Source of the DNA: Lepidurus packardi
Taxonomy: Eukaryota; Arthropoda; Branchiopoda; Notostraca; Triopsidae
Direction of reading: 5' to 3'
DNA length: 64,000 bases
Assembly: GCA_023053545.1 (NCBI GenBank)
Contig: JAKZAN010000006.1
Coordinates: forward strand, 12,283,412 to 12,347,411
The position numbers and the translations under genes are program-made. The first letter of the stretch is position 1. Each line of letters starts with the position of its first letter. The notes beneath the pieces are model-generated. The model worked only from the letters and a program-made list of their open reading frames with translations, had not been told where the DNA came from and searched no databases. Positions 4,230-58,755 of the stretch are shown here, one piece after another.

Positions 4230-5918
4230 AGGCCATCGTGTTTATTGACATTGCCACACGTGACATTGCCACACGATCTGGTTTGGATATCAACCATGAA
4301 AATATGCAGTCTTGGTCAAAGGGCCCTGATTCCTTTTGCTAAAGGAAGATGCTTGGCCGTGAGATATTCCGTGGATTGTTAACCCGGAAGGGATGAGCAA
4401 CGTTGTTTCGTAACGTCACAAGCCACCGACGACGTCGACTGGGAGAGCGTACGGATGGAGGATTGCTCCGGGTTCCGCAACTTAACGGAATCATTAAAAG
4501 CCCTCCTGAAGGCTTGTCAGTGGCAAGCATTCAGTCCTGACATCAGTAGACTACGTGAAGGCGCCAGTTTGGCGCAAACTTCGAAAATATTGCCTTTCTA
4601 TCCATTTCTGGACGCAGATAGATTCTTGCGAGTCGGTGGAAGACTGGAAGCAGCTGATCTTCCTTTCGAAAATAAGCACCCAGTGCTTATACCACCCAAA
4701 CACCCTTTAACTCAGCGAATAATCGAAGACTTCCACCGTCAATTGTTGCACGCAGGTTTCAACCAAGTCCTGGCACACCTGAGGGAGACATACTGGATCA
4801 TCAACGGGCGCGAAGCGGTGAAGAGAGTCCGAAGGAGTTGCACAGAGTGCAAAATCGACGTTGCAAAATCAGCCACGCAACTTATGGGAAACCTTCCTTT
4901 GGAACGCTTACATGTTTCGCCTCCGTTTAGCAACACGTCCGTCGACTACTTTGGGCCGTTGGAAGTTCTTCTGGGTAATAATCGTGTCGTAAAACGTTAC
5001 GGTGCCATTTTCACTTGCATTGTGACAAGAGCGGTTCACCTCGATCTTGCGCGTACCCTGTTGACGGATGATTTCCTACTTGTACTACGTCGCTTTGTTG
5101 CGACCCGCGGCAAGCCATTGAGCATCTACTCCGACAATGGAACGAATTTTGTTGGAGCGGAAAGGGAGCTAAACCAACTAGCTCAAGCTACCCGCGAAGA
5201 TATCTCCCTGGAAGGATTCTGTACGGAGCAAGGCATTGAATGGAGATTTCAACCGCCATTGACCCCGCATTTCGGGGGTGTACATGAAAGTCTAGTAAAG
5301 TCGGCAAAGCGGGCACTTTACAAGGTATTGGCTATCGAGAAGGAGAAAATGAATCACATTACCGAAGAGATATTAAGAACTGTGCTGTCCGAAATCACCG
5401 GATTTTTGAACGGTCTGCCGCTAATGTACGTTAGCTCGGATCCAAAAGACATGCGAGTTATTACCCCAAACGATTTTCTCCACCAAAGATCGTCATCGAA
5501 CTTTGTACCTGCAGGGGATAAGGTCCAAAATAATCCCCGCAAACTCTATAAGTACCTGCAAGGTGTTACCACCATGTTATGGGACATCTGGAAGAAATAC
5601 TATATACCTACCCTCACCAATCGTTCGAAGTGGGGCAACCGACAACGGGATTCTCAGAGAGAAGATGCAGTTCTAGTTCTTGAACCTAACCTGCTTCGCG
5701 GGAAGTGGCTGCACGGAAGAATCACTGAAGTCTTCAGGGTAAGCGATGGCTGCGTTCGTTCGGCAATGGTGGAAACGTACTCGGAAATGTACCACTGCCC
5801 GATACATAAGCTTTCCCTGCTCGACGCCGTGCCAACTGAAGAGGAATCGGAGCAGCTCGTCGGAGACCCGAGTAGCTGCTTGGGGGGGAGTGTTGGTGCG
5901 AGCCAAGCCAAATATTAG
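4230..5918 (+). pseudogene. BEL/Pao retrotransposon 3' polyprotein: RNase H tail and integrase
   Basis: The open part starts at 4455 (487 residues) and holds a full Pao integrase. The zinc domain has H94, H99, C129 and C132. The catalytic triad is D164 (SVDYFGPLE), D227 (YSDNGTNF) and E278 (GGVHESLVK), and a DUF5641-like tail follows. Upstream of the ATG the polyprotein can be followed in broken frames. SGLDINHENMQSW and KGPDSF occur near 4275-4340, then LLKEDAWP, a stop, and IPWIVNPEG, which match the RNase H end of Pao. The reading frame is therefore damaged before 4455. The ORF runs about 30 bp into the 3' LTR. The integrase inserts cDNA into the genome; this copy lacks RT and gag on this strand. 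Confidence 0.85.
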
Positions 5919-14560: not shown

Positions 14561-15251
14561 CGTATGCTAGCCAAGCAAAGCTTTTGGTTTTGGAAGAATG
14601 AAACCACAGTATAGAGGTTTCACAGTATGCTAACAGGGCTATCTTCCAATGTTAAGGTTTTCTGACGCCCTTCTCGGTCCCCAGAGTAATATTCAGGTAA
14701 AAGGCCAGAAAATGAAAGGGTACATTCGCAAACCTCCCAGTGCAGTTCAAAAAAGGTCACAACGGTTTACAAATCGCGTAATTTAAATCTATTGCTTTAA
14801 ACTATGTGAGCTTAAAATAAAAGATGAATTAACTAGGTCAAAGCACAACACGTATACACATTATAGACTAGTTCGCGTTACCCAGGTTGGACCACGAGGA
14901 GGCAGTCTATTTTGCAACCCATACATGTGTTTTATAGTATACAGGTTTAACCCCATATACCATAAAATACCCATGTATATTAATGTCTATATGTGTTGTT
15001 AGGACTATCTATGTCTATATACGAGTTATCCATTACATTGGTACTTTACAACTATTCCTAAATGTTACTAACTTTTGCAAGTTTAGTATTTTTCTTAACA
15101 AGTTTAACTACGGCTCTTTCTGCTACAGCTACATTTTCTTCTTTAAGTGTATAGTAAATCCTAACTCGAACGAACAAATTAAAAAAATAATCAACTGGAA
15201 AAGTTTCGCATGTCAATTCAGATAAACCAAGCAGTTTAAGTTTAGCAACAA
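14561..15251. other. Gap without a recognised gene
   Basis: Low-complexity AT-rich DNA just left of the Ngaro element. No coding signal. Confidence 0.4.
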
Positions 15252-15720
15252 TAATTGATCTTTTGCCGTCGAAGGATGGTAAAAGGATATTATCGCCAAG
15301 TCAGGCGTCGAGGGACTCCTCGCTTGTCTCCTCCCAAGATGCAGGCCTTGCATTCCGGCACATCTTCTTGGCTCGGTTGCGCTGCCCTGGTCGCGCGGCC
15401 TTTGTCGTCTTGACCTGGGTCACTCAGATTACCTTGGCTCCAAGGTCGGCGCTGCTCTTCCTTGTTTGCATCCCTTAGGTCACATCCTTGTCAATCGCCT
15501 CCCAGTTGGTATTTAAGGCCAGGACAATTGCAGAGCTTGGTCAGTCATCTTCCATTAGTGAAGATGGAAGCTTCCGAAGCGGAGAATTTGCCTCTCGCTG
15601 CGCTCTCTCCACCGTCCGAAGGAGACAGTCCGTCTTCCCAGCCAGGCTCGGTCCGATCCGTTGCGGGGTCGGCGCGGCGTTCGGCGCGGAACGCAAGGAA
15701 TCCGGCTGGCGGTTCTTCGA
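15252..15720 (+). repeat. Ngaro split repeat A1
   Basis: It matches 20450-20917 almost base for base, from TAATTGATCTTTTGCCGTCG to GGCTGGCGGTTCTTCGA. It includes the first 157 bp of the gag ORF. Confidence 0.92.
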
Positions 15721-17196
15721 GTAAGTCTGCCAAGTCATCTGCTACGTCATCTCGATCGCGTCGCGGTGATAGTGTCCAGGTGCCGTCCGCCTCTACATCA
15801 TCGTCCAGTGCCCGCTTGGTTGCTCTGCCGGTTGCCTCGCACGCCGCCCCACCTGCCACACCACCTCTCACCATGTTGACCACGCCGCACGCTCCGCTGG
15901 TGGTACCTTCTACCTCGTTTAACGCTCCGCCTGCAGCGTCTATTGCTTTGCCGGTCGCTCCGCATGTAGCGCCGTTTAATTCTCCGGTCGCTCCGCCTGT
16001 AGCGTCTACCGGTAGGCCTGTTGCCCCTTCGGCTTCGTTTGACGCCCCGCCCTTGCCGGTCGCTCCGCCTGTAGCGCCTTTTGCTTGGCCAGTCGCTCCG
16101 CCTGTAGCGTCCACCGGTCGGCCTGCCGCCCCGCTTGCTGCGACGCCTGTAGCACCGCTGGCTGCTCCCACTTCGCATTTTGCTCCGTTGTGGACGCCTC
16201 ATGCCACGCCTCATGCCTCTTACTTGACTGCCTCATCGCCCGCCTACCAGTCGGCTATGCCTTCCACACCCCAAGCAGTCACGTCGGTCGCATCTTCACA
16301 CCCGCAGCAAGGTATTTCTCCAGGGGACATTCAATCGCTGCTGGCATGGCTAACTACCCAAGGCCTCTCGAACCATCCGGACGTGCGTCCGGCAACAAAG
16401 CCGTACGCTGCGGCTTGGGCCCACCTTGGATCGGGGATCCAGCCCTCCATCGCCACTGCACAGTGCCCTTCTACTATGTTAACGGCATCCTTCGCAAACT
16501 TGCCACCCCTCCTTCCGGTTGCGGGAGAGAAGATCCTGAAAGGTCTAATCGCCCTTCCTCTTGGAGATCTTATCAAGAACACGACTCTCGAACAACCGTC
16601 GGCATCTAAGGGATCCTCGCCCCTATTGTTAGACCAGTGGGTAGTTGGCGTTGCTACTCTTTTTATGCATTCCGTTGCTAATTCTCCGCCAGATCTCCGG
16701 GCGTCCAAAGCAGTCGCCTTTTTGGGCCATATCCGAAACATGGCCTCGGTTTGGGCACAAATGCATCCGGTAGCTTGGAATAACCTGGACTTGTCCATTC
16801 GAGGCCGCGCGGACGCATATCCAGGTTGGCTTCCTGATGATCCAAGTTGGCTTCCTGATGATCCAAGTTGGTTTGCTGCACAGGCCGCTATCAGCTCGGC
16901 CCCAGCGGCGGTGGGCCTATCCGCAGCTTCCAAGTTCCCAGCCTGTTTCAAATGCCAGAACTGTAAGAGCTGGAACCGGGGCTCCCGAGACCTCTGCCAT
17001 CGTTTCAACAACACTTTTTGCGAAGGCCCTCCTTCATGCTCATACCTTCACGAATGTTCAATCTGCCACAGCCCGGACCACCCCAGACGCCGGTGTCCCA
17101 AAAAAAGAAAAGCCACATTTTGGTCATCGGTCATCCGGTCGTAACCGCTCGCGTTCTAGATCTCCGCGCCGCCAAAAGAACCCTCCAAAAAACTAA
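15564..17196 (+). CDS. Ngaro ORF1 (gag-like protein)
   Basis: The frame opens at 15462, but the ATG at 15564 (MEASEAENLPLAAL) is the likely start, after a promoter-like leader in A1. About residues 1-75 are Ser/Arg rich. Residues 90-270 are a low-complexity Pro/Ala/Val tract with repeated VAPPVA-type words. A middle folded part contains LDQWVVGVATLFMH. The C-terminus holds a Cys/His module, CFKCQNC, then FNNTFCEGPPSC, then H-x-C-x2-C-x4-H-x4-C, typical of Ngaro/DIRS gag proteins that bind nucleic acid. The zero frame stops at 17144. A second frame entered at the A7 run (17100-17106) gives an Arg-Ser tail, SGRNRSRSRSPRR, ending at 17196, which looks like the true C-terminus. Confidence 0.75.
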
Positions 17197-17234
17197 TATC
17201 TGCCGTCCTAGAGCCACCTGCTTCATCTTGCGTT

Positions 17235-19102
17235 TTGCTTCATCCGGGTAATGGTCCCATTGGTTCAGCTTCTCCTAGTGCTAGTAATGGAAATTCAGTG
17301 ACGGGTTCGTTTGATGTACCTTGTTCTTCCTTTGTGCCTTCCGATATTATGAATGTTATGGACGTTCCTTGCCCCATGAGCTTCGGGGGATTTCCGTTCA
17401 CTGTTGGGGAGGCATGCGCCTCGATTTCACCTGACATTGCTTCCGCAAAGCCCTCCACACCTGCCATCATTCCCGCCTTTTGTCATTTGGCAGAAAAATT
17501 CGTGAATAAAAACGTTGCACAAATTTGGCTCTATCGACTTTCCCGGGGTTGTGACATCGGCTTCTACCGCAAACGCATTTCACGTTTCTCTAGGAATTCA
17601 CCCTCGACCTACAGGGACCCTACCACGGTGGACCAACTTATCAACACTGAAGTCCAGAAAGGTCATGTCCTCGGCCCCTTTTCCACACCCCCTTTCAAGG
17701 ACTTTGTCGTCAATGCGCTTGTTTGGTTCCGAAAAAACCTAGTGGAGCTCGACTGATCATGGACCTTTCGCGCCCTCGCGGTTCGAGCGTCAACGACGGG
17801 ATTCCAGATTCCGCAGCTCATGTACAATATCACGGCATTGATGTGGCTATGCATCTGGTCAGAAGGATGTCCGCTTCAGACATGCCCGCCTTTATGGCAA
17901 AATGCGACATTAAGGCTTTTAGGCTCCTGCCTGTCCTCAAGTCCCAGTGGCCTCTGCTGGGGTTTTTCTGGCGCAATTTGTATTTTTGCGACGTTCGGCT
18001 AACCTTTGGTTGTCGTTCCTCTCCCAACATCTTCTGCCAGTTCGCTGAGGTGCTTCGAGACATAGTTCGCGGGATGACTTCACACGATGGCATTAATCAT
18101 TATTTGGATGATTTTTACTTTATCGCCGAGTCCCGGCTCGCTTGCCAACATCTATTGGACACAATGGAAACGGTTTGTGGAGAGTGCGGCATTCCGTTGG
18201 CTAACGAAAAAACTGTGCTACCTTCAACAAGGATGCCGCTGTTGGGTTTCGTTCTCGATTCTGTCCAGAATTCTATCTCCATCCCAGACGATAAGCTACA
18301 GGAGCTGTTAACGGAATTAAACGATTTCGGGGCGCGTAGAACAGCTCGTAAGTCAGTCTTGGAATCCTTGGTGGGCAAGTTATGTTTTGCTTCAGCTTGC
18401 ATTCCCGCTAGCCGTATTTTTCTTCGCCGGCTCTATTCCGCCATCAGCGAAACAGGCCCCAAACACCATTACGTCACCCTGTCCGCCGAAGCCAGGGAAG
18501 ACGTTCGGTGGTGGCAGGCTATGCTGCCCAGGTTCAACGGGACCGCACCGATCTTGGATTGCAAATGGACATCCGCAGAGTCCTTGAATCTCGCATCAGA
18601 CGCATCTGGGGCACTTGGCTGTGCTGCGGTATGGGGAAATCGGTGGTTCGCCATGCCATGGCCTAAACACATCCTCGCTAATCCCGCATGTTCCATGTCA
18701 TGGAAGGAGGGTTTCCCTGTTCTGGTGGCCTGTCTGACCTGGGGAATGCACTGGAGGGGACAAAAGATTACGTTACATTGCGACAACATGGGCATGGTAG
18801 ACGCGTGGCGGGCAGGGACGTCTAAGCAATCGTGGCTCGCGTCCTTGATTCGGCAAATCACTATGGCTTGTTTTTTCTACCATTTTCAGCTACGCTTAGT
18901 CCACATTCCCGGCATCCTTAATGACGCAGCCGACAGTCTGTCCAGATTTCAATTTAATCGTTTTTTCCAGGTGCGACCATCGGCGGGGCCCGACCCAGAC
19001 CGGATCCCGGGGCCGATTTCTCGTTTCCTGGATTCGCCCGAGTCACGGCTGGAATGCCTATCGCTGACCGATCTCTTATCCGAGATGCCAGAGTCCTGTT
19101 AA
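17235..19102 (+). pseudogene. Ngaro reverse transcriptase-RNase H, one frameshift
   Basis: The first part (17235-17756) ends with EVQKGHVLGPFSTPPF, the usual entry to DIRS-group RT. At about 17718 one base appears lost in CTTGTTTGG. The protein continues in another frame from 17723 (VPKKPSGARLIMDLSRP). RT motifs are KCDIKAF (catalytic D) and YLDDF (Y-x-D-D). RNase H follows with SDASGALG, SWKEGF, CDNMGMVDAW and NDAADSLSR, giving the D-E-D-D set. This enzyme copies the element RNA into DNA and degrades the template. It overlaps the recombinase ORF by 49 bp. Apart from the single break the protein looks intact. Confidence 0.88.
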
Positions 19103-19971
19103 GCGGCGCTCTAGCTCCCGCCTCCGCAAGCCTCTACGCAACAGCGGTATCGGCATTCCTTAGGTTTGCTCAGTCCATGAATTTACCCCATATACCCGCA
19201 GACGAGCCTACCTTAATCCTTTTCATCACATTCCTCCGTCGGATCGTCATGGCCCCTCAGTCCATTTTGTCCTATGTTGCGGCTGTTCGTTTTTGGCACG
19301 TGTCCCTTGGCTGGTCGCCGCCTTCAGGTCCCACGCTTTCGGTGGCCTTCAGAGCATTGAAACGTTTGCCAAACCCCGGGAGACGGCGCCTTCCCATCAC
19401 GGTAGAGCACATGCGGGCTCTAAAGCGGGGCATTATAGACCGTTTCCCTGATCCCCACTCACAGCTCATGCTTTGGGCGACGTGCACCACGGCTTTTTTC
19501 GGGGCCCTCAGAATTTCCGAATACCTGCCACCCTCTCTCACCGCCGCCGCACCTCTTAGCCCGAAGGACATGGCTATAAACCAGGACAATTGCGTCCTCC
19601 TTATTTGGAGGTCCAAAACCGATCAATCAGGCGCAGGGACCCGCGTGTCTTTCCAGGCCACGGGCAGATCCATCTGCCCTCAGCGAGCCATCGAGCGGTA
19701 TTTCGTAGCTCGGAGTTCGTTAACCGGGACCGTCGATTCAGCTTTGTTTCTCTGGTCGTCGAATTTGCCGTTGTTGCAGCGTCGCTTTAACGCCATCATA
19801 GCGGAGATTCTCCCCGAGTCGGCGGACGGTTATTTTTCCTCCCATTCGTTTCGGATCGGAGCGGCTTCCACCTTGGCGGCGTCGGGGGCTCCGGACCATG
19901 CTATCCGGCGCCTGGGTCGCTGGTCTAGCGGCGCGTACGCTAGGTATATTCGGACTATCGACGGCTCCTAA
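19054..19971 (+). CDS. Ngaro tyrosine recombinase
   Basis: A 305-residue ORF overlaps the RT end by 49 bp. Catalytic residues can be placed: R153 (ALRISEYL), K188 (RSKTD), H264 and R267 (HSFRIGAAS), W290 (LGRW) and a tyrosine in AYARYIR (Y295 or Y298). The N-terminal 120 residues form the SAM-like core-binding half. Members of this family insert the circular DNA copy without leaving a target duplication, in place of a DDE integrase. The frame is complete with a normal stop at 19969-19971, so this ORF could be functional. Confidence 0.9.
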   Translation: MPIADRSLIRDARVLLSGALAPASASLYATAVSAFLRFAQSMNLPHIPADEPTLILFITFLRRIVMAPQSILSYVAAVRFWHVSLGWSPPSGPTLSVAFRALKRLPNPGRRRLPITVEHMRALKRGIIDRFPDPHSQLMLWATCTTAFFGALRISEYLPPSLTAAAPLSPKDMAINQDNCVLLIWRSKTDQSGAGTRVSFQATGRSICPQRAIERYFVARSSLTGTVDSALFLWSSNLPLLQRRFNAIIAEILPESADGYFSSHSFRIGAASTLAASGAPDHAIRRLGRWSSGAYARYIRTIDGS

Positions 19972-20203
19972 CTTCACGTGGGCGCTTCAGTCCACTTGCT
20001 TTTCGTTTGCTTTTTTGTTTCTATTTGGCCAATATTCTGTTCTTTAAACCCCCTGTATCTTTGTTATTGGCTGGGCGTATTTGGAGCAACCCCGCTAGGA
20101 CGGCTCATCTCTAAAAATAAATGTTGGCGGTTCGCCTCGGAGCATTCTTTCCCCTTTCTAATTTTTTATAGGTTCGGGAGTTTTTGTTTGGGGACACCAG
20201 CTT

Positions 20204-21230
20204 GGCGGTTCGCAGGTCCGCAGCCTCCGGCGTTCCGAGCCGAAGCCGGAGGCCATGCGGTCCCTCGCGAATTGGCTGCGCCCTAGGGCCCGGTTTTATT
20301 GCCCAAACCTGGAAGGATTCCTCACGACACTTGGAGAAGATCAGTACTTCATAGGAAGCCCCTACTCTAGTCCTGCCTGTGCATTCGATTCGGTTTACTC
20401 GATGGATTCCTCGCTCATCTGGAAGGAGGCCTCGCGACACTTGGAGGGTAATTGATCTTTTGCCGTCGAAGGATGGTAAAAGGATATTATCGCCAAGTCA
20501 GGCGTCGAGGGACTCCTCGCTTGTCTCCTCCCAAGATGCAGGCCTTGCATTCCGGCACATCTTCTTGGCTCGGTTGCGCTGCCCTGGTCGCGCGGCCTTT
20601 GTCGTCTTGACCTGGGTCACTCAGATTACCTTGGCTCCAAGGTCGGCGCTGCTCTTCCTTGTTTGCATCCCTTAGGTCACATCCTTGTCAATCGCCTCCC
20701 AGTTGGTGTTTAAGGCCAGGACAATTGCAGAGCTTGGCCAGTCATCTTCCATTAGTGAAGATGGAAGCTTCCCAAGCGGAGAATTTGCCTCTCGCTGCGC
20801 TCTCTCCACCGTCCGAAGGAGACAGTCCGTCTTCCCAGCCAGGCTCGGTCCGATCCGTTGCGGGGTCGGCGCGGCGTTCGGCGCGGAACGCAAGGAATCC
20901 GGCTGGCGGTTCTTCGATAACCACTCCACCCTCCCCTTTATTTTTTTTTACTCCTTTTTTCCCTTTGTCTACCCTTGGACCTAGGGGGCGGTTCGCAGGT
21001 CCGCAGCCTCCGGCGTTCCGAGCCGAAGCCGGAGGCCATGCGGTCCCTCGCGAATTGGCTGCGCCCTAGGGCCCGGTTTTATTGCCCAAACCTGGAAGGA
21101 TTCCTCACGACACTTGGAGAAGATCAGTACTTCATAGGAAGCCCCTACTCTAGTCCTGCCTGTGCATTCGATTCGGTTTACTCGATGGATTCCTCGCTCA
21201 CCTGGAAGGAGGCCTCGCGACACTTGGAGG
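20204..21230 (+). repeat. Ngaro right end: B1 (20204-20446), A2 (20450-20917), B2 (20988-21230)
   Basis: B1 and B2 both run from GGCGGTTCGCAGGTCCGCAG to CTCGCGACACTTGGAGG. A2 repeats A1. The 70 bp between A2 and B2 (from TAACCACTCCACCC to the B2 start) are unique. The order explains circular intermediates: B-A joints regenerate the left end. A2 also carries a useless second gag start at 20761. Confidence 0.92.
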
Positions 21231-21239
21231 ATAACACTA

Positions 21240-21286
21240 ACTATCCTGGCGCTACGGGCGGAGGGCTAGTCAGTCGCAAAGGAACC
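21240..21286 (+). repeat. PAT split repeat A1
   Basis: 47 bp, ACTATCCTGGCGCTACGGGC through CAAAGGAACC, identical to 27577-27623. Confidence 0.88.
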
Positions 21287-21366
21287 GAGTGAGGGTACAG
21301 ACGTGCTTCAGCGTGGCTCTAGACGGAGGCCCAATTGGGAATATCGCGGGTGGCGTGTGAATTTCG

Positions 21367-22191
21367 ATGGCAACTAATTTTGTGGTGTGGGACGGGGAAA
21401 CAAGTTTGCGGGGGGTGGACGTGTTCGACGTTATAGTTAAGTTTAGACTACACGCTGGAGATGTGGCGATGGCGCGGTTTAACGCAGGAGAGACGTTGGA
21501 GTCGTTAAACGCGGAAGCGCTGGTGGGCAAAATTGAGGCCCTCACAGGGAAAAACGAGGATTTGTGGAAAACAATAATGGGTGCTGACGCAATTACGGCA
21601 GAAGCGTGGAGGATTCTAGTCCATTATCTCATTGAGAAGGCAGACGAGATCGCCTGCGCACCAACGGCGCCTAAGCGGGCGAAGAGAGGGGAGGTTCGGC
21701 CCGAGACAGCAGGAACATCGGGGACTCAGGTAAGAAGTAACTTTGTTATGTGGCTTTCCTGTCTGGGCATGTCGCGAATAAAGACCTACTGAACCGCATG
21801 AAAGATTTAGCAGGATTGGGATGTTGCACGCTTTCGCTTTGCCTAACACGCTTAGGGCATTTTCAGGCCCCAGCATGGTGGCTCCTATGGGTTTTTGGGA
21901 CGTTTGTTTTGGACGTGCTCTCGGGAGCACGAGAAAGTGAAGGTAAAGGAAGCGAGTACGATAGGGAAGACGGGAGGGAGGGAAAAGAGAGTGGAGCATA
22001 GGGCGGGGGGCTATGACTGAAGGCCAATATTGATTTTGACGGAAGGGAGCAAAAATAGTAAAAGGAAAGTAAGGGAAAGGGATTCGCAGGTTGGGCGCGT
22101 TTCGCGCTGCTCGCCTGACGTAAGGGAAGGAAAGGGAGAGACCGGAAGGAAAGAGGAAGGAATGGAAGAAAATCAGTAAAGGAATACCTAC

Positions 22192-22239
<48 letters not shown>

Positions 22240-22567
22240 AATTCGCGGGTTGAGAGTGCTTTCGCGCGTCTCAACGGGCGTAAAGGACGAAGATAACCGA
22301 GGAATACATAAAAAAAAAAAAAAAAAAAAAAGAGGGAAACTCGCAGGGAGGGCGCTCTTGCGCGGCTCGCCTGGCGCTATGGAAAGAATTAACCAAGGGA
22401 ATATATAAGTCCCGAAGTAAAAAAAAAAAAAAAAAAAAAACAGGGGGGAACTCGCAGGTTGAGAGCAATTTCGCGCGGATCGCCTGGCGCAAGGGAAGGA
22501 AAATGAGAGGGGCCGGAAAGAGCAAGGAGGGAAGGGAAGGAAATCAACAGAGGAAATACCAGAGTAC

Positions 22568-22601
<34 letters not shown>

Positions 22602-22686
22602 TTCGCAGGTTACGAACGCTCATGCGCAGCTCGCCTGGCGCAAGGGATGGGATTGAAAAAGGGAATACCTAAGCCCCGAAAAGAAA

Positions 22687-22718
<32 letters not shown>

Positions 22719-23643
22719 GGGGAACTCGCAGGTGGAGAGCCCTTTAGTGCGGACCACCTGGCGCAGAGGAAGGAAAGTGGAGGGAGCGAAGGAAGTATAC
22801 GAGAAGGGCACGGAAGGAAGGGGAGCGAAACCAAGGGGAAGGGTAGGTTTCAGACCAAAAAAAAAAAAAAAAAAAAAAAAAGGGGGTAGGAGGGCCGGGA
22901 TCGGGAGCATGACTATGAAACCTGCAGGACTAATAATTTTGCAGGGCTAATGAGTTCGCATGGGTCGCTTGGGTATGGGTCGGATTTGTTATCTACTCCC
23001 AGGACACCATTAAAACGATGATGGAGATGCAAGCGCGCCTGGCGGAGCTGGAAAGAGGAATCATCGGGGAGTCGGCGGCTTCCATAAAGCAGCAATTAAT
23101 GATGACGGCCACGTTGGACCCGGTGACGTTCAACCTCGCGCACTTCCTAGTAAGGCTAGAAGTATACGTGAACGCACTGCAGAGGGAGAAGAGCGCAGAG
23201 GCCACGAGGATGTACAAGATACTACAGGCCTTGCGGGATCGGGTCCGGGATGGTGCCGATATAAGGAACCTGTTTCAGGCGTTGGTAGGGAACGCAGAGG
23301 ACATCAAAATGCAAAAAGCCCTCCTGAAATTTGACGAAAATAGGAAAGGAAAGGGGAAACTCCCCGAGGGGACCGGCGCAAATGAACCGGGAGGGAGGGC
23401 TCTCTGGCAACCCTGGAGAAGGCCCTGGAGGCGACCAATAAAACGGTAGCGGAGCTAGCCAAGTCGCTACAAACACCAGCGTACAGAGGGCGGGGAAGAA
23501 GCGCGAGCCCGTTCCGCCGCTTCGGAACGTCCACATGTTATAGTTGCGGGTCTGTGGGGCACTTCGCGCGGGAGTGCCCAAAAGCCTACAGGAACCCCAA
23601 TGCGGGGGGAGGGGGAGGGGCGGGAAACCAAGGCAGTAGGTAG
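21367..23643 (+). CDS. PAT gag with a 1.27-kb intron and a C-terminal frameshift
   Basis: Exon 1 is 21367-21729: MATNFVVWDGETSLRGV, an ISLE-like helical part, ending GTQ before GTAAGAAGT. Exon 2 begins at 23003 after CTACTCCCAG and continues in phase 0 (DTIKTMMEMQARLAELERG). The 1273-nt interval is therefore best read as a spliceosomal intron. Exon 2 holds a capsid-like helical region up to about 23395, where one base is gained or lost. The continuing frame ends with a classic CCHC knuckle, CYSCGSVGHFAREC, and a Gly-rich tail to the stop at 23641-23643. Gag packages the element RNA. The splice model is inferred from sequence only. Confidence 0.7.
22080..22885 (+). repeat. Intronic array of GC-rich units each closed by poly(A)
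   Basis: About six related units follow one another. Each starts with a G-run and a variant of AACTCGCAGGTTGAGAGC, passes TTTCGCGCGG and TCGCCTGGCGCAAGGGAAGG, and ends in poly(A). The A tracts lie at 22195-22232, 22310-22331, 22419-22440, 22569-22596, 22684-22710 and 22857-22881. Unit length varies from about 85 to 165 bp. The whole array lies inside the proposed gag intron. Confidence 0.8.
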
Positions 23644-23751
23644 GGAAGGGGCGTATCCCTACCGACCGAAAAGAAATACAGTACCTGAAAAAAAAAAAAA
23701 AAAAAAAAATTTTAATGAGAAAATTAGGATAACGAGGAAAAAAAAAGAGCG

Positions 23752-26073
23752 ATGCGCGTAATGTTGAACTTCATCTCCTTTAAGGCTTACAGGACGCCGC
23801 CTAGCAGGAAAATCTGCTTTAACCCGGAAACCATCATGCCACAAAGGATGGCAGACCGCGAGCTGACATGGTGGGCGCTGACTTTGGAGGGGGAACCGGA
23901 AATGGGTAGAGAACTACCGAGGCTTGTCGAGGTGGAGGAGCTGGCGACCCAGGTTCAGGACGGCAGCGCCACGATGTCCGTGTGGGACGAAAACAAGTTC
24001 GTGGTGGGAGGCGTCAACTCCAGACTGAAACAATGGGAGGCCATAATGCAAACGGAGCAGTATGGTAACAAGGAGATAATTCTAGGCTGGGTGAAAGAGG
24101 GTTTCGACCTTCGACAATTCTTCAAACCACTTAAGGGGGCGTTCGGGGGCGCACAATACAACGCGGAGTCCCCACCCATGATGGCATTCCCGAACAGCCA
24201 GTCAGCAAGGGAAAACGTCGATTTCGTTTCCGAGACCATCACAGAACGGCTAAGGAACGGTTCCGTTAGCGTCTGGGGGCGAGTGGACCGAACGCCCCCA
24301 CCACATCTAGTCCTCCCGCTCACCGTGGAGCCGGAGAAGCCCCGCCTGTGCCACGATGAGCGTTTTCTAAACCTGTGGCTAAAGGACATGCCATTTAAGC
24401 TCGACGGCTTGTCGCAAGTACCCAGGATCGTTTCCAAAGGGGACCTTTTGGCAACCCTGGACGAGAAGTCCGGATATGACCATATCCTGGTGGCTCGGCA
24501 AGCGAGGAAGTACCTGGGCTTCGAATGGGGAGGGTGGTATTTCACCTTCAACACCCTACCATTCGGAATGAAGCTGTCGGCATACGTCTACCAGAGGGTG
24601 GGGTCGGCCCCGATAAGATGGCTCCGGGAGAGGGGAATACCCTCTCTCAGGTACATTGACGATACACTCATAGTCTCGGGACCCCAGGGGCGCGAGAGGG
24701 GTGGGAGTAGTGTAAAAAAGGCGGTGGCGTTACTAACGACGCTGGGCTACACAATAGCGACGAAGAAATCGCAGGCCCTTCCCGCGCCGAGGGTGAAGTT
24801 CCTAGGGATGGTCGTGGACGCCAGCCAACAGGCATTTTTTATCCCGGAGGAAAAGGTGGAGAGATTCATGCGGCTCAGGAAGGATATGCTAGGGAAGCGG
24901 ACAGTCTCGCTGAAGGAGTTGCAGAAGTTTGTAGGGAAGGTGATCTCCTTCGTCCCAGCCTTCCCGCACGCAAGACTTTTTGTTAGAGCCTGCGCGGCGG
25001 CCATAAGCGGAACGGGGAACGGGGCAAGTCGAGCGCCAATGGAGGGGGACCTTCGGGACGAGGTAGTATTTTGGGGATCCGTCGCGACAGAAGGACGGGT
25101 TTACCCTTGGAGGCCAGAAGCCCACTCCAAGGTTAGTGTGCAGCTGTACACGGACGCCTCCGGCTACGGTTGGGGCGCCTCGTTGGAAGTGAGTGGCAAG
25201 AAGCGGGCCATTTCCGACTATTGGACGGTCCGCGAGAAAAACATGGGAATAGCCGAGAAGGAGGCCATCGCTGTCACCAAAACGCTGCTTGCCGCTAGGA
25301 GCGTGTTGCAGGGACGGAGGCTGCTCGTCTTCGTGGACAACAAGAACGTCATGCAGCGCTGGAACGGGGGCGGGGGACGCGCGGCCGCACTGACGGGGGC
25401 CATGAAGGACCTCTTCATGGTCGTAATGAGGCTAAATATCTACCTCCAGATGAGCTACATAGCGTCCGCGGAAAACCCGGCAGACGGCCCATCCAGAAGG
25501 GTCTCAAAAGCTGACGCAACCCTTTCCGCGGAGTCTTGGCGGAGGGTACAGGGAGCTTTCGGGGGTAGGCGCGGCCATTCGCACGACCTCATGGCGCTGG
25601 ACTCCAACGCCATGACGGGCCGAGACGGACATCAGCTGCCACACTTCACTCCGTGGGAGTCGCCGAGCTCGGCGGGGGTGAACATGTTTTGCCAAAGGGT
25701 GGAGGACCTGGAAAACCCCTACGTGTTTCCGCCGTTTTCGATGGCAAGCGGGGTCCTCGCTTTCCTGAAGGAAAAGAGGGTGGCGTGTACAGTGGTAGTG
25801 CCAAAGGCGGCAGAGACCCCGGCGTGGTGGCCAGTTTTGTTAGCGATAGCAACGACTGGTTTCCCTCTGGGTTACAAGGGGGACAGGGGAGTTCTACGAT
25901 ACCCGTCGCCGAGTGGATGGTCGGATGACGAGGGGGGGTTGAAGCAAGACCTATGGGTGTTCAGGGTGGGCGGGTTCTTAGTGAAGAGGGGGGGGGGAGT
26001 GCACGCAAACAGAGTTGAGAAAGGCCAACTTAAAAAAAAAAAAAAAAAAAAAAGAGAAGAGAAAGGGCGATGA
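23752..26073 (+). CDS. PAT reverse transcriptase-RNase H with methyltransferase-like C-terminus
   Basis: A 773-residue open frame. The N-terminal 190 residues lead into RT. RT motifs are VEPEKPRLCHDERFLN, DLLATLDEKSGYDHI (catalytic D), FNTLPFGMKLSAYVYQ and RYIDDTLIV (Y-x-D-D). RNase H has YTDASGYGWG, AEKEAIAV, VDNKNVMQRW and ENPADGPSRR. The tail has HSHDLMALDSNAM, then VFPPFSMASGVLAFLKEKR and a following VVVP-x-WWPVL block. This is the region usually called a Dam-like adenine methyltransferase in DIRS/PAT elements, although its activity is unproven. The end reads through a 22-nt poly(A) tract as a Lys run. It is preceded by a poly(A) tract at 23688-23709. Confidence 0.9.
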   Translation: MRVMLNFISFKAYRTPPSRKICFNPETIMPQRMADRELTWWALTLEGEPEMGRELPRLVEVEELATQVQDGSATMSVWDENKFVVGGVNSRLKQWEAIMQTEQYGNKEIILGWVKEGFDLRQFFKPLKGAFGGAQYNAESPPMMAFPNSQSARENVDFVSETITERLRNGSVSVWGRVDRTPPPHLVLPLTVEPEKPRLCHDERFLNLWLKDMPFKLDGLSQVPRIVSKGDLLATLDEKSGYDHILVARQARKYLGFEWGGWYFTFNTLPFGMKLSAYVYQRVGSAPIRWLRERGIPSLRYIDDTLIVSGPQGRERGGSSVKKAVALLTTLGYTIATKKSQALPAPRVKFLGMVVDASQQAFFIPEEKVERFMRLRKDMLGKRTVSLKELQKFVGKVISFVPAFPHARLFVRACAAAISGTGNGASRAPMEGDLRDEVVFWGSVATEGRVYPWRPEAHSKVSVQLYTDASGYGWGASLEVSGKKRAISDYWTVREKNMGIAEKEAIAVTKTLLAARSVLQGRRLLVFVDNKNVMQRWNGGGGRAAALTGAMKDLFMVVMRLNIYLQMSYIASAENPADGPSRRVSKADATLSAESWRRVQGAFGGRRGHSHDLMALDSNAMTGRDGHQLPHFTPWESPSSAGVNMFCQRVEDLENPYVFPPFSMASGVLAFLKEKRVACTVVVPKAAETPAWWPVLLAIATTGFPLGYKGDRGVLRYPSPSGWSDDEGGLKQDLWVFRVGGFLVKRGGGVHANRVEKGQLKKKKKKKREEKGR

Positions 26074-26109
26074 TTAAAATACACAAGTTAACGGCGCTGA
26101 TACAGGCAT

Positions 26110-27537
26110 ATGGCAGGGGGGGAAACGAGCGTCTTGGGGGCAGGACAGGACAAGGTAAGAAAGGGTTCATTTAGAAGTAATCCTCTTTTCCACGTAGGTG
26201 GCGGTGGTTCGTCAGACGGTGGACGTGGAGATGCTACGGGGAAGACAACGACCGCTGGAGAATTTGGCGGCAGCAACGCCGTACGGGAAACAAATGGAAG
26301 GGCTGGGGCGGGACTTGGAGAACTTCCTAGGGGTCCTACCGGAGAGGAAGACGGTATGGGAAGCCACACCAGACGACCTGATCTTGTTCCTGATTCACAA
26401 GGACAAGGGTGGCAGAACAACGGTCCACAATTTGGGCTGTGGTGAAGGCGAAGCACAGCCGGAAAAGTGCGCGTGCCGACGAGGGCTGGCAGCGGGCACC
26501 ATAGACAGCATGATTGGAAGACTCATCACGATCTTCTACGGGAGGGGACTGACGGGGGAATGGAGGGGCACCAACTCGCAGGGTAGGGGTAACCCCGCTA
26601 AATCTTGGGGCTTCAAAAGGTACTTGGCTGCGGTCGAAAGGGAGCAGAAGCAGGCAAGGGCTCACCCAAAACAAGCGCAACCCGTCCTGGCCGACAAGTT
26701 AAAGGCAATGTCAACCCGATGGCTCAGGGACTGGATCCTATCCTCGGAGCCTAGGGAGCTCTCCTCTTCAGTAGGAACAGGGCGATCCTGCTCACGGTGT
26801 TCTTCGCGGGCTCAAGGGTTAGCGATGTAACCCGCCTGAGGACGAGTGAGATCCTCGCCTTGAAAGATGGATCGGGCCTGTTACTCCATCACACGGTAGG
26901 GAAAACTTTGAGGGACGGGAGGGACAATCTGTGCGCCATCATGCGGAATGACGACGCCGCCATCTGCCCGGTGAAAGCGATGAAGGACTACAATAGAACA
27001 GCGGGAGAAAACGGGGTGACGCTGGCGGGGGGATACTTCTTCCGTATGGGGGTGGAGAGTGGGGCGAACGAGGAGCCGGCCGTGTATGGTCAATTCCACG
27101 CAACCATGCATGCGTGCCTGCGAAATTTGGGGATCCACGGGGGCGAGACACCCCACGGGGTTAGGTCCGGTGGCGCCATCTCTCTGGCAATGCTGGGCGC
27201 GACGACTCAAGAAATTTGTAATCACGTGGGATGGACATCGCATGCTACAGCCCGCTACTACCTGGCCGTGGAGAAGGTAATGGGTACCGTGGCAACCGCC
27301 CGAAAGGCGGCAGCAGCGGCAGGCGTGCTGGAGGCGGCCAGGGTATACGACGGCCAAAACAACCCGATAGACGTGGCCCCGCTTTCGCGGTATAGAATAG
27401 GAGGTAGGAGCTCCAAGGACGTGGGATTAGGAGGAGGCGGGATGTTGGGTATGGAGGGTTGGGTGTTTAGGGTACGAAGTTCCTGCACAAGAGGAGGGAC
27501 TTTCCATTGGGGGGGCGGGCTCTATCCCCATCACTAA
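26110..27537 (+). CDS. PAT tyrosine recombinase, with a 43-nt intron and one frameshift
   Basis: The ATG at 26110 (MAGGETSVLGAGQDK) is followed at 26155 by GTAAGA and at 26197 by CCACGTAG. Removing these 43 nt joins it in frame to VAVVRQTVDVEMLRG. A core-binding half runs to LRDWILSSEPR. A one-base shift at about 26760 then leads to ILLTVFFAGSRVSDVTRL, with the first catalytic Arg. HGVRSGGAISLAMLG gives H-x-x-R, HVGWTSHATARYY gives the His/Trp and the nucleophilic Tyr. The enzyme integrates the circular DNA form. Either the intron or the frameshift could be a sequencing artefact; the domain identity is clear. Confidence 0.82.
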
Positions 27538-27990
27538 CACTGACCGGAGACCCGTAGCGCCAGGTTAGGATAATATACTATCCTGGCGCTACGGGCGGAG
27601 GGCTAGTCAGTCGCAAAGGAACCAAGGGAGGGTATTAGGCGAGGGTTCCAGCGTGCGAGAGGGGATTAGGGTGTAGGGGAGAGGGAAAAGCGAAGAGAAA
27701 GCTTGGGGTTTCTTTGGGACTCGGATTTCCTACCACCTTGTTCCGTTGCCCGAGCAGCTCTGCATTTGTTCATCTGTACCTGTTCGGAGTTTTTTTAAAA
27801 AAAAAAAAAAATATAATAATAATAGTAATAATGATAATAAGATGGGAAACGAGGAGAGGAGGGTATAGGAGACGAGGAAAGGTTGTAGGTATTAGCAAGA
27901 GGGCACCGGAACCACAGGGAGAGAAGAAAGGGCACAGAAGACAGGGGTCAGATGTAAAAGCAAAAGAGCGCCAGCAGTTGGGGAAAACAA

Positions 27991-28035
<45 letters not shown>

Positions 28036-28239
28036 GAGCAGGGAGACACGGGAGGGCGGGGTCCGGGGCCCAGAGCGGTCACATAGCCGCGGTTCGCAAC
28101 CGGACCCGCGATAGGATCCGGGCTCGGTCAGTCTGCCACCCGCCTGCCGGCGGAGGAAGCCGGTGGGGGGGCGGGCTCTATCCCCATCACTAACACTGAC
28201 CGGAGACCCGTAGCGCCAGGTTAGGATAATATACTATCC
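27508..28239 (+). repeat. PAT right end: B1, A2, poly(A)-containing spacer, B2
   Basis: B1 27508-27583 and B2 28164-28239 are identical 76-bp copies from TGGGGGGGCGGGCTC to AATATACTATCC. A2 (27577-27623) follows B1. Spacer 27624-28163 has A15 at 27797-27811 and A35 at 27996-28030 and no clear gene. The B1-A2 joint forms a hairpin with 14-bp arms, CCCGTAGCGCCAGG and CCTGGCGCTACGGG. Confidence 0.88.
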
Positions 28240-28579
28240 CTGGCTCACAAAAGGATTCCTGATAAGTTTCCTGAAAAACGGACTCACACTTAAAAAGATA
28301 CTGAATAGAGGCCCTAGGACCCTACGTCTGCCCCAAACTCCCTAGAGTGCCGGAGAGAAAGGTCACCAGTCCCCCGTTTTGTGAATGTTTTGTTCTCTTT
28401 TCGAACCCTTTTTATAGTAGATTTGGAATGCCTACTTCTGGGGTAGGATGGGCAAGTCTGTGAATCCATCCCTCCTATGTTCCTTGTTACCCTCACATCC
28501 TCTTGAGACCGAGAAAATCGTGTTAATCCCTTTACATTGGAAGATACCCCCAGTTACCATACTGTGAAACCTTTATACT

Positions 28580-29700
28580 GTGAATGAAACAGTTCTTGGC
28601 CAGAAGTGTTTTATTAGTTTGGTTATAATCCCAGTGATGGTGATTATAATCCGAGTTAGTTTTAATCCCAGTGAGGGCCATTTCTTGCCCATTTCTGAGA
28701 ACTTTGTCAAACTTTCTTGAATTCCGCGGAGTTTTCAAGACGAAGTCGAGGTAACCTTTTTGTAGGCATTCTTTTTAATGAGTGCTAAAAGTAAAAATGC
28801 TGAATTCATGGTTTCAATGTATGCCAACAGGAAACGTTCAGAAAGCCATTTGGGTTCGATAGAAAACGTCCATTTTAGGGTTTAGCAGTTGACTCGTTTG
28901 TTTGAATTCCAACTAACTCGTTTCCCCCCTTCTATGTTGGTTTTGCTGGCTCTTCGCCATGTAGACCGCGGAAAGAGGGTGGAAGGATGAAATAACCATT
29001 TTCTGGGTTGTGGAACTCGTCCTATGTATCGAAGCGAAAGGAAGAGTTTTTGTTCTTGTTCTTTTTTTTCCTAGGACGTTCACGACACTGTGAGAAAAGG
29101 GAGAACGAAGTCTCGGAAGGTTTTGGGTTGTAGGATATAGATAAGCAAAAGGGGGGTGCAGAACCTGCACCTGGTCGGTCGACGATGTTTGTTTTGCAGG
29201 ATCTTCGCCATGTAGACCGCGGAAAGAGGGTGGGTTGTGGAGCTCGTCCGTTGTATCGAAGCAAAAGGAAGAGTGAATAAGTCGACTTGGTCAACGTCGC
29301 AATCGTCTGGAACTTTGAGCCCTTTCTTTTAGACCTTTTCATTTGTGGGTGTTTTTCTCATAATACTTTTGACATAATAGAGATGCTTGTCTCTTAATAT
29401 TTGCCTTGACGCAAGGTCCATTTTTTAATTTGAATGAACTAGATCTTTTTTTATTACTATCTGCCTTGTCGTTGTCTAATAGGCTCGATATAGAGCTCCG
29501 TTTGGCTACTATTCCGTATTGAGAAATACCGCGAGCAGGCTCGTCATTTTCAGTGTGTTAAGTCTTAGACAGTAGCAACGGAGCTTCTCTGGGTTTTGGT
29601 GGGCGTGGTTCGGGTGCATTGTGGGGCCTGTGGAGGACCAGTAGGAAAGGGGCGTTCTATTCGGGTGTGGTGATGAAGAGGCGGGGTAAGGTTTGACTTG
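28580..29700. repeat. Decayed duplicated gene unit 1
   Basis: This stretch aligns piecewise with 31250-33690. Shared words include CATTTCTTG near 28680 and 31345, GGTTTAGCAGTTGACTCGTTTG near 28880 against 31990, TGTAGACCGCGGAAAGA (28965, 29215 and 32070), and GAGCTCCGTTTGGCTA (29490) against 33487. The order is kept, which points to tandem duplication of a multi-exon locus. The TGTAGACCGCGG block is itself duplicated here (28940-29045 and 29195-29300). Frames are broken. The gene was not recognised. Confidence 0.6.
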
Positions 29701-47696: not shown

Positions 47697-48502
47697 AGTT
47701 AAGTGAGTTATTTCAATTAGCTCTCTACAATTAAATTTTTCATTTCATTTAAAATCTCCTCCCATTGCCATCCATTTCAGAGAGCGCAGTTAAATTAAAC
47801 AGTTGATTGTCATTATTGAAGAACTGAGTTAGGAAAAGGGAAATATTTCAAAACTAATAGTTCTGTTTGCACCGTTAATGCCCAAAAGCTCTCATAATGG
47901 CGCTCGGGTCGTATTACGCAATTAGAACGCAGCTGTGGCTGGTAGCAGCCCCTAAGGAAGCCTCTCCTGTTGGCGTTTAGCGTGTTTTGTCAGAATAAGT
48001 GTCTTAAAAAGTGGAACTTTTCGGAAGTTTTAGAGGTAAGGAACAAGTGGAGAATACTCGCATTCACTTAGACTTAATTAATGTACCAAGTTTAACCTCT
48101 AAGTATGCCAGTTAAGCCCGTTCTTGCCATTTTTAAGAGCGATAACAGGCTGTCCGTTGCCTCCACACTCCAACGTTTAGACAACATTTAGATTTTCTAA
48201 ACAAACGAAATGTTTAGAAAAAAAGAAGGATTTTTGTATTTTCACTTTTTTTTTCTATTTAACATAAGGAGAGCTTACTAGCATACAATGGGATAGAGTG
48301 GCGCGTTGAAATTGGCGTAATAAACTGCACATGGTAAGCGTTCACTTTTGCGGGGAATTTTTCAGCACGATAGTGGAAAAACTTCAGTACTTTCCAGTTT
48401 CATTGCCATTTTTTATTGGTAGATTGGTTCGATTTCCATTTGACACTATTTAATTTAATGCTATTTAAACATTATTCGTGCAATACATGCTAGCTTTAAT
48501 TT
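47697..48502 (+). repeat. Segmental duplication arm 1 (partner 51338-52170)
   Basis: Words such as AATTAGCTCTCTACAATTAA, GAGAGCGCAGTTAAATTAAA, GGCGCTCGGGTCGTATT and AGCGATAACAGGCTGTCCGT recur in order at 51350-51810. Divergence is low with small indels. No gene is seen. Confidence 0.85.
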
Positions 48503-49130
48503 GGTAATAAGATATCAATAATTGTTTTCATAGAGTTTTTGTTTCTCTTGGCAAATAGGTACCGCCCAGGGCAGCTAACTTTGCAGTGAACCAGCAGCCT
48601 TTTTGCAGCCATCTGGGTTCTTCTCTGCGTTGTACTTTTGTTGAGTTTGTCTGGATTCTTCAACGGTTGTTTTAGCCGAGAGTGTTCGTGTCCTGACACG
48701 AGGTGTCTCAGCTGCTGCTAAATTTGGTAATAGGATATGAATAATTGTTTTCATAGAGTTTTTGTTTCTCTTGGCCGATAGGTACCGCCCAGGGCAGCTA
48801 ACTTTGCAGTGAACCAGCAGCCTTTTTGCAGCCATCTGGGTTCTTCTCTGCGTTGTACTTTTGTTGAGTTTGTCTGGATTCTTCAACGGTTGTTTTAGCC
48901 GAGAGTGTTCGTGTCCTGACACGAGGTGTCTCAGCTGCTGCTAAATTTGGTAATAGGATATGAATAATTGTTTTCATAGAGTTTTTGTTTCTCTTGGCCG
49001 ATAGGTACCGCCCAGGGCAGCTAACTTTGCAGTGAACCAGCAGCATTTTTTGCAGCCATCTGGGTTCTTCTCTTCGTTGTACTTTTGTTGAGTTTGTCTG
49101 GATTCTTCAAAGGTTGTTTTAGTTCTTTTT
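48503..49130. repeat. Tandem repeat, 223 bp, three copies
   Basis: Units start at ATTGTTTTCATAGAGTTTTT at 48521, 48744 and 48967. The third copy is truncated on the right. Units contain GGTACCGCCCAGGGCAGC and CGTGTCCTGACACGAGGTG (an internal inverted repeat around CTGACACG). The minus-strand ORFs over it only reflect the repeat and are not supported as genes. Confidence 0.88.
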
Positions 49131-52170: not shown

Positions 52171-52640
52171 GAATATGGTAATTAGATATCAATAATTGTT
52201 TTCATAGAGTTTTTGTTTCTCTTGGCAAATAGGTACCGCCCAGGGCAGCTAACTTTGCAGTGAACCAGCAGCCTTTTTGCAGCCATCTGGGTTCTTCTCT
52301 GCGTTGTACTTTTGTTGAGTTTGTCTGGATTCTTCAAAGGTTGTTTTAGCCGAAAGTGTTCGTGTCTTGACACGAGGTGTCTCAGCTGCTGCTAAATTTG
52401 GTAATAAGATATGAATAATTGTTTTCATAGAGTTTTTGTTTCCCTTGGTAGATAGGTACCGCCAAGGGCAGCTAACTTTGCAGTGAACCAGCAGCCTTTT
52501 TGCAGCCATCTGGGTTCTTCTCTGCGTTGTACTTTTGTTGAGTTTGTCTGGATTCTTCAAAGGTTGTTTTAGCCGAGAGTGTTCGTGTCTTGACACGAGC
52601 TGTCTCAGCTGCTGCTAAAACATTCGAGTTATTCTTTTCG
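52170..52640. repeat. Tandem repeat, 223 bp, two copies
   Basis: ATTGTTTTCATAGAGTTTTT starts at 52194 and about 52418. It is the same unit as at 48503-49130 but one copy shorter. Confidence 0.87.
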
Positions 52641-57407: not shown

Positions 57408-58755
57408 TTAGAAAATGCATTTACGCTTCTCGGCAGAATCCGCTCGATGAATCTTTTTTTGCGCATTTGCGGTACATCTTTGCAGGCATTCTTTGACGCT
57501 CTGTTTGGGGACACCTTTTTTTTGGCATACATAAGCTATTAATGCCTCTATTGCTGTTGGAGAGAGTTTGGGTTTAGGCGGCGTTTTCAAAAACGAGTTT
57601 TTGGGGGATGGTCGTCCCGTCAGGGACTTCGTCCCCAATTCATCTCCGAATAGCTTCGACGCAAGTGATTTCGTCAGATCATCCGCCGACGTTTGTTGGA
57701 GATCGGCCAAACACAATTTCAGATCTTTCTCCGAGATCTCCTTGTCTCCGAATTGTACCATCTGAAAACAAACAAAAGAAAGCGTAAAACTACACGAATA
57801 AAGAATTCATACACATTAAACGTGTAGTATTATATACGTACTGGTATATCGGGCACGGAGGGTACTGCCTCTACTTTCGCTTTTAAAGAATTGACCTCTT
57901 TTTGCATACGTTTCATCATATTTTTCATATCCCTTGGGGACAATTCCTCCTCCTCCGAATCACTACTATCTTCCTAAATGTAGTTTTTTTGTAAGTTTAA
58001 ATTGAAATTGAGAAAAATCAAACGGACAAAAACTTACCCTATCTGATCCACCTGGAGTACCTGCAGACGAATATGATGGCGATGCCGGTTGGTATGCTGC
58101 TTCTGCTTGTCCTGGTGCTGGGCCTGGTGCTGGTGGGTAAGCTGCAGGTGGGTATGTTGCTGCTGGTTGGTATGCTGCTTCTGCTTGTCCTGCTGCTGGG
58201 CCTGGTGCTGGTGGGTAAGCTGCAGGTGGGTATGTTGCTGCTGGTTGGTATGCTGCTTCTGCTTGTCCTGGTGCTGGGCCTGGTGCTGGTGGGTAAGCTG
58301 CAGGTGGGTATGTTGCTGCTGGTTGGTATGCTGCTTCTGCTTGTCCTGCTGCTGGGCCTGGTGCGGATGGGTAAGCTGGTGGGTATACTGCTGCTGATTG
58401 GTATGCTGCTTCTGCTCTTCCTGCTGCTGGGCCTGGTGCTGGTGGGTAAGCTGGTGGGTATGCTGATGGGCCTGCAGCAGGGCTTGCTGCCTTCGACGAT
58501 ATTACCTAAAGTAATAACAAATGAGTAGTTAAAAATAAAACAAAATAAGTGAAATATTTATGATAAATTTGTTCTTTCATTAGTACGAACCTGACGCTCC
58601 TGGAAAGCTGTGACTGCCAGGGGTGGCCGCAGTGTACGCTTTGGTGCCTTGTGCGCCTTGCTGGTTTTCGTCTTAGTATCGGAAGTTAGTTCGTATCCAT
58701 CAAACTTTGTTTTTTTCCTCTGCCTTTTCGAATTTTCTTGTCCATGTGAATCCAT
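57408..58755 (-). CDS. BEN-like-domain protein with Pro/Ala tandem repeats (four exons, 372 aa)
   Basis: Exons are 58755-58591, 58505-58038, 57973-57842 and 57761-57408, all phase 0 and of lengths divisible by three. All borders are GT-AG. Exon 1 is basic (SKRQRKKTKFDGYEL), probably nuclear-localising. Exon 2 holds five repeats built on AYPPAYPPAPGP and GQAEAAYQP. Exon 3 is acidic then helical (DSSDSEEEEL; MMKRMQKEVNSLKAK). Exon 4 has LFGDELGTKSLTGRPS, then LSPTAIEALIAYVCQKKGVP and VKECLQRC, the pattern of BEN-type DNA-binding domains. Such proteins usually act in chromatin or with transposons. No lesion is seen, so it is probably functional. A BEN-family match is inferred from pattern, not a search. 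Confidence 0.75.
58083..58490. repeat. 78-bp coding minisatellite, five copies
   Basis: GGTATGCTGCTTCTGC starts at 58091, 58169, 58247, 58325 and 58400, a period of 78 bp with one 75-bp unit. The period is a multiple of three, so copy changes keep the minus-strand frame of exon 2. Confidence 0.92.

Follow-up and report, generated by a model that had tools for sequence, protein, structure and literature searches.

The closest described systems to the tyrosine-recombinase (YR) retrotransposon considered here (E2) are the ALOG-containing DIRS1-type retroposons (Iyer and Aravind 2012, PMC3537659) and the Pat1-like elements (Szitenberg et al. 2014, PMC4157794). According to the former paper, the ALOG retroposons are patchily distributed in metazoans, occur also in Ectocarpus and, like E2, combine a zinc-knuckle gag with RT-RNase H and an ALOG-recombinase; in the Ectocarpus element, unlike in E2, the terminal direct repeats measure 159 bp and additional ORFs lie on the 5' side. 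The latter describes a zinc finger in the Gag of echinoderm-form Pat1-like elements (as in E2), together with a methyltransferase domain in Pat1-like elements, for which E2 gave no Pfam profile match (none at E up to 1 in its 781-aa frame), and characterizes strict DIRS1-like elements by long inverted terminal repeats with an internal complementary region (PMC4157794). As to introns, the word itself occurs 0 times in the main texts of PMC3266345, PMC4157794, PMC3783388 and PMC3537659, no YR retrotransposon with a natural intron is mentioned in the available portions of PMC8547959, PMC5633606, PMC12477816, PMC5718144 and PMC2936281, and full-text literature searches returned, among the matches listed, no intron in a PAT or ALOG element. 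The earlier note's remark on spliceosomal introns in DIRS1-like elements found no confirmation in the literature searched either.

E2 occupies positions 21240..28239 on the forward strand of the window (i.e. the whole 64-kb stretch of DNA analysed, G000:C5:12283412-12347411 of the 108.6-Mb assembly in which the genome searches were carried out). It carries split direct repeats of the A1-B1A2-B2 type that characterizes PAT-like elements (A1 21240-21297, B1 27508-27583, A2 27577-27634, B2 28164-28239), the same cross-matches being present in a second genomic copy (copy 2). Its genes, all on the forward strand, are ordered as a gag in two pieces, an RT / RNase H open frame (23728..26073, 781 aa stop to stop, with an in-frame ATG at 23752 and an A22 tract upstream; Pfam RVT_1 2e-15, RT_RNaseH 5.1e-9) and a tyrosine recombinase (26198..27537, Phage_integrase 1.4e-6) with an N-terminal ALOG domain (ALOG_dom, PF04852, 6.9e-13). 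This is the domain set of YR elements of the DIRS order, and none of the five E2 pieces scanned gave a Pfam match to a DDE integrase. In the window copy the recombinase is spread over two overlapping open frames, with ALOG_dom and Phage_integrase falling in different frames. Furthermore, integration appears to have proceeded without target-site duplication, as expected of YR elements: when the alignments were inspected by eye, the flanks of the window copy and of copy 2 had ACTAT alone in common, which belongs to the element ends. A zinc finger of the Pat1 type (CX2CX4HX4C) was recognized by eye in the second gag piece, within the unbroken frame of copy 2, and the ALOG matches found in the genome were two only, those of the window copy and copy 2. 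The C-terminus of the 781-aa frame presumably resembles the MT regions of DIRS elements.

The earlier note had brought up DIRS1-like elements, a designation that does not hold for E2 in the strict sense, given that its main repeats are split direct ones (not the long inverted terminal ones that go with an internal complementary region) and that its recombinase is of the ALOG kind. An imperfect inverted pair of 33 nt (85%; 27563-27595 / 28207-28239) covers the B1/A2 junction and the right end, which look like a palindromic recombinase core site; such a site would be expected to give a pair of this kind. From its sequence we would class E2 as a PAT-like, ALOG-type element, two names that may overlap. 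The RT and ALOG queries found no relatives in IMG/VR, and Rfam gave 0 matches at gathering scores.

We consider it moderately probable that a spliceosomal intron splits the gag of E2 and, perhaps, that another of minimal size splits its recombinase ORF, the support in the sequence being the splice signals, the phase, the coding character of exon 1 and the presence of both splice sites in copy 2. The candidate gag intron (21730..23002, 1,273 nt, CAG/GTAAGA ... CTACTCCCAG/G) has its donor CAG/GTAAGAAGT starting at 21730 and its acceptor CTACTCCCAG/GAC ending at 23002, and lies between exon 1 (21367..21729, 121 codons from its ATG, ending in phase 0) and exon 2 (23003..23639, with the CCHC zinc knuckle), which begins directly after TATCTACTCCCAG. 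The segment has GT-AG ends and its removal restores the reading frame, both of which are expected of a spliceosomal intron: with the 1,273 nt taken out, the 121-codon frame continues in phase 0 into the following gag frame, just as the earlier note had claimed. The donor agrees with 8 of 9 consensus positions, and scores of 8 or 9 are found at 46 of the 6,998 GT sites on both strands of the window; three donors on the sense strand of E2 reach at least 8/9 (21730, 25132 and 26155), two of which (21730 and 26155) sit where the reading frame must jump. The acceptor (simple score 11) is unremarkable on its own, since 3.3% of the AG sites in the window score as well; on the sense strand of E2 this score is reached by seven AG sites, 23002 among them. 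An acceptor-like site at 23784 would link exon 1 (from donor 21730) to the RT frame in phase 0, and represents a possible alternative splice. Short GT-AG intron candidates were also called by script in host chaperonin genes (noisy calls, several of them clearly wrong, which serve solely as a sign that the host has such introns), and as these are mostly under 250 nt, a length of 1,273 nt seems long and one of 43 nt (that of the second candidate intron) very short.

Neither Pfam (no match for exon 1 at E up to 1; for exon 2 a sub-cutoff THP2 match only, 0.034) nor a single-sequence fold of exon 1 (mean pLDDT 42.7) was informative, and exon 1 is therefore assigned to gag by its position and phase. 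In the window copy exon 2 starts within an open frame (22937-23449) that breaks before the zinc knuckle; copy 2 has one frame of 214 codons.

The genome search matched exon 1 at three places at least and exon 2 at two at least. Judging from the places of the exon matches, copy 2 (L003, C5:9.66 Mb) holds both exons with 843 nt between them; of copy 3 (L044, C2:2642774) a decayed 5' fragment is present, whose exon 1 contains a stop and which covers neither the acceptor nor the array. Searched at the DNA level with the complete intron, the genome gave four matches, namely the window copy, copy 2 (two) and copy 3. The two copies that hold both exons are close relatives, and each has at least one broken frame (in the window copy those of gag and recombinase; in copy 2 the RT match contains a stop).

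Exon 1 was compared with copy 3 from 21472 to 21729 (258 aligned positions; the initial 105 nt of the exon, which are gapped, were left out), giving 14, 14 and 49 mismatches at first, second and third codon positions (86 positions each). By this third-position excess (one-sided binomial p=5e-8), exon 1 is truly coding and was under protein-level selection. The codon bias is absent from the segment 21813-21995, which begins 83 nt past the donor (19/16/19 mismatches of 59 each, 177 aligned positions) and which, by the same measure, is without protein-level selection. With 54/177 mismatches and 53 gapped columns, this segment is less diverged than the third codon positions of exon 1 (49/86, p=5e-5), more diverged than its first and second positions (28/172, p=0.002) and similar to the 5' leader (48/127), which is at most a weak hint of non-coding constraint.

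These comparisons bear on the main alternative, namely that there are two separate ORFs and no cis-splicing, i.e. a small protein of ~141-144 aa ending inside the ‘intron’, and a second one starting at the in-frame ATGs of exon 2 (23018 and 23021) and expressed either through internal initiation after the A-tract/array or through spliced-leader trans-splicing at 23002. The exon 1 frame does run on to a stop soon past the donor (at 21790, giving an open frame of 143 aa), and A22 tracts precede the RT and recombinase frames too (at 23688 and 26032, respectively). The copy 3 comparison is equally compatible with an intron and with a short separate ORF, because the tested segment starts beyond the 21790 stop, and the stretch directly past the donor that holds this stop is missing from copy 3. 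On the other hand, copy 2 does not keep the stop at this position, its frame being three codons longer (146 aa), it would take a coincidence to produce a donor so near the consensus together with an acceptor in exact phase, and a similar donor-acceptor pair is found before the recombinase. We regard the two-ORF arrangement as unlikely, if far from negligible. Copy 3 (L044:4055-4080) lacks ~80 nt just past the CAG of exon 1, with the gap ending near TTTAGCAG; in this one decayed copy, the gap is possibly a captured short splice or a deletion through CAG..CAG microhomology.

The part of the earlier note according to which the segment carries its own tandem array, inside the gag of a YR retrotransposon, was borne out by repeat analysis: six GC-rich units with A-tracts and G-runs span ~22079..22881. 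The cores measure ~56 nt; A-tracts of 22-38 nt precede five of the six, one more A-tract stands at the end of the array, and purine spacers are also present between them. When a sequence-only model was made from the window cores, it recovered all six of them and four more in copy 2, one of which is shortened and weak (18.9 bits). The donor GTAAG and the acceptor CTACTCCCAG are retained in copy 2 while the array between them differs, so that the conservation asked about in the earlier note holds for the splice sites and fails for array length (four units vs six). A continuous gag without the array, which the earlier note had named as the finding that would speak against an intron, was found nowhere in the genome, both places that hold the two exons (2/2, counts being lower bounds) having intron and array. 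We therefore give next to no credence to the idea that a dead copy recently took up the array, or all of the 1.27 kb: the broken gag and recombinase frames of the window copy would suit it, yet it is contradicted by the same array family and splice sites in copy 2, and by the differences among the six unit cores (mean column identity 83%). Since copy 2 keeps the splice sites around fewer units, the array is labile, and the simplest reading is that units were duplicated in tandem long ago, in a space where this is tolerated, with gains and losses of units since.

Two further proposals on the array were rejected. A conserved hairpin was unsupported, the z-scores of the cores being -1.94, -3.22, -0.44, 0.71, 0.36 and -0.92, and compensation on both sides being shown by 0/14 pairs in the consensus from the six window rows, whose covariation term is unfavourable. 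Likewise, the array did not emerge as a dispersed repeat in a genome search with an 18-nt core (up to 2 mismatches), since 6 of the 7 matches fall in the two copies and the seventh, on C6, is at chance level (1 match for the reversed control); as this pattern recovered four of the six window units, it could overlook distant relatives. Runs of A or T of at least 14 nt in the 64-kb window are, in 10 of 12 cases, sense-strand A-runs of E2 (22195-28030), six of them in the intron, one before the RT, one before the recombinase and two in the 3' region, and some of the A-tract lengths of E2 differ in copy 2.

The second candidate intron (26155..26197, 43 nt, AAG/GTAAGAAAG ... TTTTCCACGTAG/G) is identical in copy 2, and its removal would join a candidate first recombinase exon of 15 codons (26110..26154, from the ATG at 26110) in phase 0 to the recombinase frame at 26198. 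Counting against this intron, an upstream ATG at 26070 lies in a different frame. Near the end of the recombinase, copy 2 carries an extra A-rich insert.

In the most likely reading, the host spliceosome would take out the intron to yield the gag mRNA (and perhaps the recombinase mRNA), and the unspliced RNA would be the template that is copied and integrated, for which reason the copies would keep their intron. The GC/poly(A) array would sit in tolerated intron space, its length shifting through gain and loss of units. The intron in copy 2 fits such an unspliced-RNA template, and also fits a spread as DNA, in which a real intron would be kept because the copies arose by recombinase-mediated excision and reintegration, or by duplication. 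The recombinase makes this route conceivable, and the window copy and copy 2 have diverged unevenly, by 1/127 in the 5' leader, 10/363 in exon 1, 11/350 in the part of the intron that precedes the array, 21/463 in the array (with a further 339 gapped columns) and 3/598 in exon 2, a pattern suggestive of recombination between lineages. Nevertheless, we hold a spread as DNA to be quite improbable: the two insertions share their element ends and differ in their flanks, and E2 encodes RT and RNase H, on which grounds retrotransposition is the default.

Introns in retroelements are known in general. The Penelope-like/Athena retroelements reportedly keep introns in spite of being thought to spread via RNA (an account that goes back, as is said, to Arkhipova et al. 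in 2003); these are likewise intron-keeping copies, but their class of retroelement is unrelated and integrates by another mechanism. In retroviruses the unspliced RNA is the genome, and gag is made from it. Unspliced RNA would be the genome in E2 as well, the retroviral arrangement being reversed in that gag would need spliced RNA; if spliced, E2 would have to control splicing as retroviruses do, with the roles swapped, the expression of gag (and perhaps of the recombinase) being tied to splicing and the copied RNA having to escape it. An elaborate form of this proposal, in which the RNA is split by splicing (gag and recombinase made from spliced RNA only, the genome from unspliced RNA) and the array is a tunable brake that sets the ratio, seems to us distinctly doubtful, the array as a splicing brake being speculation. 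The introns of 843 nt and 1,273 nt would form a natural pair for relating repeat number to retroelement expression and, should the splicing hypothesis be true, introns would be added to the ALOG-type/PAT-like elements.

Elsewhere in the window, a second YR retrotransposon of another lineage (E1, 15252-21234) ends 5 nt before the start of E2. Its direct repeats are split as well, long (300 nt and 248 nt) and 99% identical, and it has RT and recombinase Pfam matches, with one long open frame of 576 codons, itself lacking a Pfam match, at the position expected for gag; the genomic locus L010 is E1-like by its ORFs. An inverted repeat of 34 nt (91%; 14605-14638 / 28549-28582) brackets E1 and E2, and is possibly formed by the ends of an older element hosting both insertions. 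The open frame 4383-5915, with DUF5641 and integrase zinc-binding matches, is what we take to be a BEL/Pao-type remnant. Moreover, similar 223-nt tandem repeats are present at 48498-49122 and 52172-52619, and a 78-nt tandem repeat (4.8 copies, 58083-58453) has long open frames on both strands.
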